Source: a virus | Strand: one strand, 5' to 3' | DNA: 64,000 nt | Virus record (IMG/VR): IMGVR_UViG_3300048924_000191 | Coordinates: 64,001-128,000 of that record | In this document: positions 9,905 through 48,599 of the stretch, piece by piece | Position numbering within the stretch: the first letter of the stretch is position 1 | How the letters are laid out: every line of letters begins with the position of its first letter | Translations under genes and position numbers: made by a program | The notes under the pieces: generated by a model | Seen by the model: only the letters and a program-made list of their open reading frames with translations | Told to the model about the DNA's origin: nothing | Databases searched by the model: none

Positions 9905-9940
9905 GTAGATGTCCTCCTAGGACGGTGAGTGGCAAAGAAA

Positions 9941-20195: not shown

Positions 20196-20804
20196 TTAAC
20201 GATACTGGTAGGTGGTATCGAGGGTGAGACGGACCAGTTGACGATTGGTGTCTTGGCTGACGACGTGGCCTTCGTGGATGAAGGTAGAGTTGCCGAGGTA
20301 CGTGATGTTCTCCTCGAGCCAGAAGTTTTCCATCTTGCTGAATTGATCACGCAGGTGTTCGCAATCACCGCCACGCCCTGCTGCGCCGTCTACCGTACCG
20401 ACGAATGCTTCGCACGCCATGAAGGTGCTGGCCATGACCACACCGCCCAGATCCGAGTGGTATTGCAGGCGCTGTTGTTCTTCAGTCAGAAGGCGGCCCG
20501 GAGTACCGTTCAGCCAGCCGCCTGAGCTACCCCAACCAAACAGGTAGTTACCGTCGATGTGTACGCCGCCACGGCGCAGTTTGTTGCTCTTCTTCAGGAA
20601 CTGTTCGTCGATGGTGACGTAGAACCCGGTGTGCGCTGGGATACCTGCGTCCTGGAGCATCTTGTCGATCACGGAGTGGTATTGTTCAGGTACGCCTTGC
20701 AGCGGATGACCCACCAGATTGCGAGCCATGTAAACCTGCGCACCGGTGAATTCTGGGAAAGTAACTTGACCTACAGCGCGTGCTTTGGAATGAAGTTGCG
20801 ACAT
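20196..20804 (-). CDS. Possible Fe(II)/2-oxoglutarate-type oxygenase
   Basis: 202 residues from Met-Ser-Gln-Leu-His; GGAG ribosome site. His82-Ile-Asp84 in Gly-Gly-Val-His-Ile-Asp-Gly-Asn-Tyr is followed much later by His177/His180 in Phe-Ile-His-Glu-Gly-His and Arg188/Arg192, the order H-x-D ... H ... R of 2OG dioxygenases with a double-stranded beta-helix core. Spacing fits PhyH-like members best. If correct, it hydroxylates a small molecule, protein or base. The assignment rests on these few residues only. Confidence 0.55.
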   Translation of the reverse strand: MSQLHSKARAVGQVTFPEFTGAQVYMARNLVGHPLQGVPEQYHSVIDKMLQDAGIPAHTGFYVTIDEQFLKKSNKLRRGGVHIDGNYLFGWGSSGGWLNGTPGRLLTEEQQRLQYHSDLGGVVMASTFMACEAFVGTVDGAAGRGGDCEHLRDQFSKMENFWLEENITYLGNSTFIHEGHVVSQDTNRQLVRLTLDTTYQYR

Positions 20805-20844
20805 GTTTTGTATCTCCATTTAGAAAAGTTGCGGCATAAAGAAA

Positions 20845-21492
20845 AGAAATACCGCCCCTGTCCTTCGCTTGGTCGAGAACTCAGGCGCACGCCCTGGCTG
20901 TTCAACTCAATTTATGAATTGAACAGTGGCGAACGGCTGGAACTCCGGCCGGAAGGCATTTACTTCGGGGCGGTGGGTGCTTCTATACTCGACGGTCTGT
21001 AGGTGCTTAGTCAGCATGTTGCTTAAGCCCGCTACCCAGGCAGATTGTCGTCGTGGTATTGCGACATCACACAGATGTCTGGTTTTGGCCGGTCATCCCG
21101 TACCTGAGGTGTGACTATCTACGCTCATCAGTGAACTGTCGTCTGCCAGAAGTTCAAAGGCGTCAGGGAGTCTGGTCCGTGCCTAACCAGGTTCCAATGA
21201 CCTGTGGCTCGGGGGCGAGGGGCGCGAAGCGAGCGCTGTGATTTACGCTGAGTCAAAAGTATCGCGGAGCTGGCGCCCTTGCCTGACAGTACCCGGAGTA
21301 CTGGGACAACGAACAGCGGCTTTCGCAAAACCTTCGGAGAGAGCCGGGCCGTCAACGAATATACGAAGACGGGCCGAGTGTCGTCCCAAAGGATCATCCA
21401 GACCGAGCGGATCTTAACAGCGAAGCTTCGGAGTAACTGAACCAAACGATCCATGGCTCTCCTTAGCGTGCGGCGGTGGTTTTACATATAAT
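20845..21492 (-). ncRNA. Candidate large structured non-coding RNA, about 640 nt
   Basis: The longest gene-poor stretch of the window (20805-21511). On the minus strand it opens with a TATA-like element (complement of CATATAAT, 21485-21492), identical to the one at 2550-2557. Local hairpins include 21287-21303 (CAGTAC stem), 21188-21204 (CAGGT stem) and 20898-20926 (8-bp CTGTTCAA stem). An 8-bp long-range helix (GGGGCGGT at 20967-20974 with ACCGCCCC at 20851-20858) closes the 3' domain, followed by a T-rich tail as in a terminator. The one sizeable ORF (21128-21454) is very poor in acidic residues. No tRNA or known riboswitch recognised. Confidence 0.5.
21128..21454 (-). CDS. Doubtful ORF inside the RNA-like region
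   Basis: 108 residues. A good TAAGGAG lies 5 bases before the ATG, which is why it is listed. The product has about four acidic residues against roughly twenty Arg/Lys and no family resemblance, which argues against a real protein. It may be translated in part, or be chance. Confidence 0.22.
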   Translation of the reverse strand: MDRLVQLLRSFAVKIRSVWMILWDDTRPVFVYSLTARLSPKVLRKPLFVVPVLRVLSGKGASSAILLTQRKSQRSLRAPRPRATGHWNLVRHGPDSLTPLNFWQTTVH

Positions 21493-21511
21493 GGCACATC
21501 GCCGTAAGTAG

Positions 21512-47568: not shown

Positions 47569-47847
47569 CTATTTTAATAGTCCGATAACGTAGGCGATCA
47601 GGAGAGTCAGCGTACCGCCAACGATGATGTCAAGAGCAATCACCGCTCCTCTCCCCATGACGAACGACTTCTTGGTACGTTTACCGTACTTGCGTTCGTT
47701 CACCCCTTTCTTGTATCCGGCGCGATAGTCCCACCACAGTCGCCATTGACTGCGGCGGTATCGGCCAGACTGTCCGTACTTACCACTCAACCCGTCTTGA
47801 TATCCGAGCTGAATGGCGGAACGGATGCGTTGCTTGGTCTTACTCAC
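47569..47847 (-). CDS. Small basic protein with C-terminal TM
   Basis: 92 residues with a GTG start forming a GTGA overlap with the preceding stop; ATG at 47874 is an alternative. Very basic, Tyr/Arg-rich first 60 residues (Tyr-Gly-Gln-Ser-Gly-Arg-Tyr-Arg-Arg) then one TM segment (about 66-90). Tail-anchored topology. Confidence 0.7.
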   Translation of the reverse strand: MSKTKQRIRSAIQLGYQDGLSGKYGQSGRYRRSQWRLWWDYRAGYKKGVNERKYGKRTKKSFVMGRGAVIALDIIVGGTLTLLIAYVIGLLK

Positions 47848-48599
47848 CACTGCACCCCGATCAGTTCTTGCCAACGCGCTGAGATCATGTTCCAGTAGTT
47901 GGCCTCAATGCCGTCACCATAAGCTCCGACGGCATAACCGTCGTTCACCTCAACGACTGCTGTCCGGCCATCGGCCAGAACGCCAAAGTCAATGACGTAA
48001 CCGGCTGGCGCTGCGTGCTTACCGGAGAGGCGTACGACTTCAGACACTACCCCAAGATCAGGCGCTATCTTTGGGTCGCCGTCGTAAAACGACAGTGCCG
48101 TATGGCGATTATGAGTGATGTAGCAGCGCCATTCAGACACGAACTCAACCACCTCGCTCATGTACACCGGACATTGACCTGAAGCGCCGTTGAAGCGAGG
48201 ATCGTAGCTGTTGTCGGCTACGAATCCAGTGAAGCGTTTGGCAGCTTCCGGTTTGATGAAGAAGCGATGACCTTTGTCGAGGAGTTCTTTCGCACCGTTC
48301 AGTCTGAACCCAGGTGTGATCTTGCGCCGGTAATAATTCGTCAAGCAAGCCGGATAAGAAGGTTCCTCGACGTTAGCCAGCTCCTTACCGTAACGCCGGA
48401 GTGCGTGTTTGATGAACGAGATACTACCCGCCACCAAGTCATACGGTCCCAACTCGACGAAACCACGTGCCACGAGCTTCTCAGTCAATTCCTCGACCTT
48501 GATGTTGTTGCGAACGGCGTAGTCTGCGAGCAGTTGTTCTTCGCGCCCGAGTTTGCCGTTACGGCGTTCCAGGACCAGTCTGACCGGTAGTCCCTGCAT
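47844..48599 (-). CDS. R2K-clade ATP-grasp protein
   Basis: 251 residues from Met-Gln-Gly-Leu-Pro, with AGGAGGTG at 8 bases. The C-terminal half follows the phage R2K ATP-grasp pattern. It reads Val-Val-Glu-Phe-Val-Ser-Glu-Trp-Arg, then a Tyr-Asp-Gly-Asp-Pro segment, Tyr-Val-Ile-Asp-Phe-Gly-Val, Val-Val-Glu-Val-Asn-Asp-Gly-Tyr, and Gly-Ala-Tyr-Gly. These are the conserved Arg and the metal-binding Glu/Asn of the fold. R2K members are thought to modify peptides or proteins. Overlaps the DHFR gene's 3' end by 41 bases. Confidence 0.8.
   Translation of the reverse strand: MQGLPVRLVLERRNGKLGREEQLLADYAVRNNIKVEELTEKLVARGFVELGPYDLVAGSISFIKHALRRYGKELANVEEPSYPACLTNYYRRKITPGFRLNGAKELLDKGHRFFIKPEAAKRFTGFVADNSYDPRFNGASGQCPVYMSEVVEFVSEWRCYITHNRHTALSFYDGDPKIAPDLGVVSEVVRLSGKHAAPAGYVIDFGVLADGRTAVVEVNDGYAVGAYGDGIEANYWNMISARWQELIGVQW

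Follow-up and report, generated by a model that had tools for sequence, protein, structure and literature searches.

A conserved structured RNA in the 3' part of a predicted short-ORF transcript of phiKZ-like jumbo phages

We analyzed a window of 64,000 nucleotides, positions 64001–128000 of the 243,378-bp IMG/VR record IMGVR_UViG_3300048924_000191 (hereafter G000), from a phage known from metagenomes only. Proteins encoded in this record include a virion RNA polymerase of phiKZ type (PHROGs 3148 and 2986), a major head protein, a tail sheath and chimallin, the protein of the nuclear shell (PHROG 4795). The phage is thus a phiKZ-like jumbo phage and probably forms a nucleus. The minus strand carries nearly all genes near the locus studied here and all elements of the RNA locus described below. 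The locus occupies a 707-base gap (20805–21511) in which no frame shows codon usage like that of the phage's genes, in agreement with an earlier note that had singled out the stretch as gene-poor. The note also took it for the largest such stretch, a rank that is tentative: the gene caller behind the list of gaps was crude, and the longer gaps on that list, e.g., 47704–48558, hold a long ORF. The same note had seen no tRNA or known riboswitch, and our searches concur: ARAGORN found no tRNA in the 64-kb window, and the Rfam 15 families, including GOLLD, ROOL, OLE, tmRNA, RNase P, group I/II introns and riboswitches, gave no gathering-score match in the window, nor in any of four relatives. A search against Rfam with relaxed E-values returned microRNA noise only. 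The gene adjoining the locus (20196–20819, minus strand) belongs to PHROG 8970 and is ~80% identical in three other phages, G001–G003. These are otherwise distant from G000 and have only this closely related gene in common with it, and the gene has probably been exchanged recently between jumbo phages.

At the right end of the gap lies a predicted promoter, TTACGGCGATGTGCCATTATATG (21485–21507, minus strand), with the layout TTACGG-N9-ATTATATG. The late element of the phiKZ non-virion RNA polymerase (nvRNAP) is TATG with the start at its G (+1), and phiKZ middle promoters have AAanTTACc near −24 (PMC4666361). The element ATTATATG (21492–21485) shows this TATG with its G at 21485, and because the phiKZ rule places +1 at that base, transcription of the locus by the phage nvRNAP is predicted to start at 21485. 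The pattern TTACKG-N12-15-TATG occurs five times in the G000 genome, each time between genes (shuffle mean 1.45; noncoding fraction ~12%). A similar promoter precedes the other members of the RNA family that are long enough to show one, with the exceptions that G007 has TATA for the terminal TATG and that the spacing differs in G005. On the plus strand ATTATATG reads CATATAAT, found in the window only at 21485–21492 and 2550–2557 (0.44 copies expected), and the locus thus opens with the same element as a shorter locus at 2285–2557, as had been noted earlier. Their kinship extends to the promoter but not to the RNA; no homolog of the 2285–2557 locus was found in the relatives. A third copy of ATTATATG in the genome lies ahead of the chimallin gene, and the element also precedes the chimallin gene of G001.

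Several other loci came to light around these promoters. The minus-strand region 2285–2573 is a second predicted transcription unit, with the same promoter (TTACTG...ATTATATG) and ~265 nt without evident gene, and it is strongly folded (z −4.5), much of this being due to a 21-bp terminator hairpin. In G008 (= L280; 228033, minus strand) and G026 (= L117; minus strand), a ~450-nt locus with no evident gene lies 3' of ATTATATG; it has two consecutive terminator-like hairpins, is 85% identical between both phages and is a candidate second RNA family. In G006 (= L287:9591, plus strand), ATTATATG is followed by ~260 nt without evident gene, with a hairpin and TTTATGCCG at the end. In two distant jumbo phages (L017:16466–16848, minus strand; L025:16865–17111, plus strand), the leader of the chimallin gene starts with the same ATTATATGTGAA and continues into a small hairpin, upstream of promoters of the early type. 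Nowhere in the G000 record is there a copy of TATATTAC, the early promoter motif seen in phiKZ and G001–G003; TACATTAC/TACATTAT stands before genes in its place.

Downstream of the promoter lies an ORF of 108 aa (21128–21454, minus strand) whose coding status is doubtful. A Shine–Dalgarno sequence, AAGGAG (21459–21464), is placed 4 bases ahead of its ATG, and the relatives have an ORF at this position, as would be expected if the locus made a protein from 21128–21454 and the remainder were the debris of a decayed gene. Against this, the codon score of the ORF is −0.058 per codon, compared with a mean of +0.229 for same-length in-frame stretches of genes, and falls below the genes' 1st percentile (+0.024). 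The product has no PHROG or Pfam match and no similarity to the corresponding ORF of L312, and the remaining ~370 nt of the locus covary as RNA (below). We therefore regard a coding or decayed gene as a very improbable account of the locus, and for its 3' part a coding reading is strongly disfavored. In a separate observation on ribosome-binding sites, we found AGGAG Shine–Dalgarno sequences set within small inverted repeats at 9921, 10989, 57896 and 58982 of the window (minus strand), and the same arrangement at L013:10095, L015:13797, L019:14105 and L020:16928 (minus strand). The arms of these repeats differ compensatorily (GACCT/AGGTC, GTCCT/AGGAC, TTGCCT/AGCAA), and the ribosome-site hairpin is repeated ahead of at least eight genes.

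At the corresponding place, the relatives carry unrelated ORFs of 86–113 aa, and in every sufficiently long member an ORF led by a Shine–Dalgarno sequence begins after the promoter. These upstream ORFs are of the kinds MFGSF... (L312, L313 and L315), LDIR... (G010 and G045) and MELLL/MEILL... (G005 and G048, E 2e-12 between the two). The upstream gene of G007 resembles that of G048; the ORF of G007 at this place has only 16 codons, against 99 in L353, a syntenic relative of G007, with the RNA intact. The dN/dS values for the ORF of L312, L313 and L315 (0.36–0.51) indicate some purifying selection; those for G010 and G045 (0.65–1.0) indicate little constraint. The ORF of G048 stops within hairpin A (below) and so overlaps the fold. 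The first ~280 nt of the locus showed no conservation as RNA among the relatives. The earlier description of a 640-base RNA-like locus consequently holds for the 3' ~370 nt (21204–20835), a conserved RNA, but not for the 5' ~280 nt, the position of the unrelated ORFs. The poor codon usage of the G000 ORF and a minimum-energy fold that can join both transcript ends could also be reconciled with a single intact noncoding RNA of ~640 nt, folded throughout and containing the ORF by accident; as the first ~280 nt are unconserved and hold real-looking ORFs in the relatives, we consider this improbable as well.

The conserved core (20835–21204, minus strand; ~370 of ~645 nt) defines an RNA family, here called family A, with nine members: G000 and eight other IMG/VR contigs. 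The closer homologs (G010, G045/L249, L312, L313 and L315) are 70–78% identical over aligned pieces, and G007, L314/G048 and G005 are distant; the three most distant members have little common sequence except hairpin A and the tail. Members were found with blastn, DNA patterns and a covariance model. Relatives identified via terminase yielded the homologs in G010 (E 2e-9, plus the 3' tail), G007 and G005, a scan for the T-rich tail added one new member, L249 (its record being G045), and searching for hairpin A brought in L312, L313, L315 and L314. The covariance model, comprising the 5' arm and hairpin A, scores the six closer members at E 3e-25 to 2e-32, these being the same six from which it was built, and the distant members at E 0.02–0.09 only. 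Neither the other jumbo-phage records tested nor twelve jumbo phages in culture, among them phiKZ, 201phi2-1, Phabio and Goslar, matched it convincingly; a match to LucasX was weak (E 0.2). A conserved 20-mer hit five IMG/VR stretches, all five of them family members, and nothing in the genome collection. Family A was not found in GenBank phages, and a DNA comparison of G000 with these gave nothing useful. Two lines of search were set aside: G001–G003, the first relatives found, share only the one closely related neighbor gene with G000, and the absence of the RNA from them is misleading; and CGGGATRACCG alone is not specific as a family marker, most of its 22 matches lying within genes. We also observed, in G030 (= L155:1490–1525, plus strand), a terminator-like hairpin, GAGACGGAG-CGGGATGACCG-CTCCGTCTC, whose tip is identical to that of hairpin A.

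From its 5' end, the core starts with hairpin Z (CAGGUCAUUGGAACCUG, 21188–21204), with compensatory stem differences in G045 and L31x (read by eye, with no pair count), and continues with a 5' arm (GACUCCCUGACGCC...GCGUAGAUAGUC, 21113–21172), the inner hairpin of which covaries. Hairpin A (GGU-A-CGG-[GAUGA]-CCG-GCC, 21087–21104) combines a covarying outer stem with the element CGGGAURACCG, invariant in all nine members, four of which had been found by searching for hairpin A. In hairpin B (GACAUC-UGUGU-GAUGUC, 21063–21079), the stem sequence is free and all counted pairs covary. Arm C (20985–21059), a long imperfect hairpin, recurs, with different sequence, when the other members examined are folded. 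The 3' domain that follows includes a perfect 12-bp hairpin (20898–20926) with a sequence particular to G000, the relatives having other hairpins here. The long-range helix that the earlier note had drawn as closing this domain is corroborated: its 5' strand ACCGCCCC (20967–20974) and 3' strand GGGGCGGU (as DNA GGGGCGGT, 20851–20858) form 8 bp, 6 of which are changed on both sides among eight distinct sequences. All of these features are on the minus strand.

The earlier note had proposed covariation in related genomes as a check on the RNA, and the eight relatives provide it in the form of compensatory changes. RNAalifold on six aligned members predicted 53 pairs, 14 of them covarying. Compensatory changes support five helices, the long-range helix among them: in the six-member alignment, 99.5% of their cells are paired, and both sides have changed in 11 of the 35 pairs. 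Neither value was reached in any of 500 shuffles, and versions slid along the alignment pair in 31–41% of cells. Across eight distinct sequences, 13 of the 19 pairs in hairpins A and B and the long-range helix have changed on both sides, a count that is favored by the registers of hairpin B and the long-range 5' strand having been set by hand; that of hairpin A was anchored on the invariant CGGGAURACCG. MAFFT misaligns the variable arms of very distant members, and helices there were hand-registered. Folded separately, G007 and L314 recovered hairpins A and B, arm C and the long-range helix. Taken alone, the long-range helix is modestly above chance in several single sequences (in a run covering all but the last two members), and folding energy lends weak support (z −1.37 over the whole locus and −1.98 over the core), being unremarkable in several members.

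The long-range helix is immediately followed by a U-rich tail, AUUUCUUUUCUUUAUG (20835–20850, minus strand); L315 has one A–A mismatch in the helix. As DNA this is ATTTCTTTTCTTTATG (20850–20835), the T-rich tail reported earlier, and the relatives have the same tail. In the G000 genome, TTTATGCCG is often found 3' of terminator-like hairpins, and the helix and tail together would constitute the terminator. RNAalifold also proposed a candidate helix between the tail and an upstream GGCAUGG, with almost no compensatory change.

Where the ORF and the fold meet, the level of conservation can be read directly. Five members have an identical GACTCCCTGACGCC, and G045 departs from it by a single base. 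This stretch encodes the QTP-stop end of the ORF in L312, L313 and L315 and DSLTP in G000 and G045, and it lies past the ORF stop in G010. As the frame of these conserved bases varies among the members, selection acts on the RNA. The ORFs are unrelated, and that of G007 is down to 16 codons with the RNA intact, which makes the RNA the stable element of the locus. The comparison shows homology, a conserved architecture and compensatory changes, with the RNA and not a protein being what is conserved.

These observations would fit a mechanism in which the phage nvRNAP transcribes the locus leftward from 21485 to ~20840. The first ~280 nt of the transcript would be a short ORF with fast turnover, serving as a leader or having a second function. 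The last ~370 nt would comprise, in order, hairpin Z, the 5' arm, hairpin A with its invariant GAURA pentaloop, hairpin B, arm C and the 3' domain, closed by the long-range helix that may act with the U-rich tail as terminator. The core would then be a stable, protein-binding RNA acting in trans, with hairpin A and the 5' arm as the putative binding site. We favor, with some confidence, a trans-acting structured RNA forming the 3' part of a short-ORF transcript made by the phage polymerase. Its nearest competitor is a cis-acting 3' UTR, with the fold stabilizing or terminating the mRNA of the small ORF or controlling its translation and having no role of its own. In the sufficiently long members, promoter, Shine–Dalgarno sequence, ORF and RNA stand in line on one predicted transcript, and all such members start an ORF led by a Shine–Dalgarno sequence; the ORF of L312, L313 and L315 is under purifying selection, which makes it conceivable that the RNA acts in cis within a small mRNA and weakens the trans reading. 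The overlap of ORF and fold in G048 points the same way, as does the ~100-nt phiKZ ncRNA cut from a 3' UTR (PMC8545117). However, one RNA family accompanies several unrelated groups of ORFs, G007 has kept the RNA with an ORF of 16 codons, and the invariant 11-nt hairpin element exceeds what stability or termination needs. Because the ORF has been exchanged and lost, we prefer action in trans and give the 3' UTR role a lesser, though appreciable, chance. Three further candidates were rejected: a CsrA/RsmA sponge, as GGA motifs are not enriched; a group I/II intron, riboswitch or tmRNA, for want of an Rfam match; and a hammerhead, as G000 has CUGAUGAG with the other core bases missing and the relatives have CUGAUAAG.

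Dual-function bacterial RNAs such as SgrS/SgrT and RNAIII/delta-hemolysin carry a short ORF and a regulatory structured RNA on each transcript. Family A is similar in having an ORF and a structured RNA on the predicted transcript, with no homology implied, and differs in that its ORF is not conserved between lineages. RNAs C and D of T4 are stable phage RNAs of unknown function located within a tRNA cluster; compared by description only, they are shorter than the family A RNA. Like GOLLD, ROOL and the ICP1 ncRNA, family A is a large structured phage ncRNA of unknown function; the ~800-nt RNA of ICP1 is its most abundant transcript, and tRNA neighbors are frequent, though not universal, for GOLLD and ROOL (PMC7567579). 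Unlike these RNAs, family A has a conserved part of ~370 nt, a window without tRNA in G000, a short ORF preceding the RNA and another architecture, and no Rfam match was obtained at any member tested. Grad-seq of phiKZ identified ncRNAs of ~100 nt from the PHIKZ298 3' UTR and ~180 nt from the p40 5' UTR (PMC8545117). Family A resembles these in the broad phage group, the position at the transcript 3' end and the terminator coming last (PMC8545117), but the phiKZ RNAs are much shorter, with two stem-loops, and the family A model matches nothing in phiKZ.

Family A appears to be a previously undescribed RNA family, its shape kept across at least nine related viruses. Structured phage RNAs longer than 300 nt are seldom described, and for phiKZ-like phages we found two short UTR-derived candidates in the literature. 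A bolder proposal, which we think unlikely but worth stating, is that the RNA is a dedicated structural or regulatory RNA of nucleus-forming phages that is made at high level by the phage polymerase and binds protein, the resulting RNP serving in the phage nucleus or in phage assembly; if true, it would represent a new class of viral RNA machine. A conserved family with an invariant hairpin, its own predicted promoter and a covariance model is a defined object for pull-down, probing and deletion, and it offers a clear case of a structured RNA being retained while the small ORF of one predicted transcript is swapped or lost.
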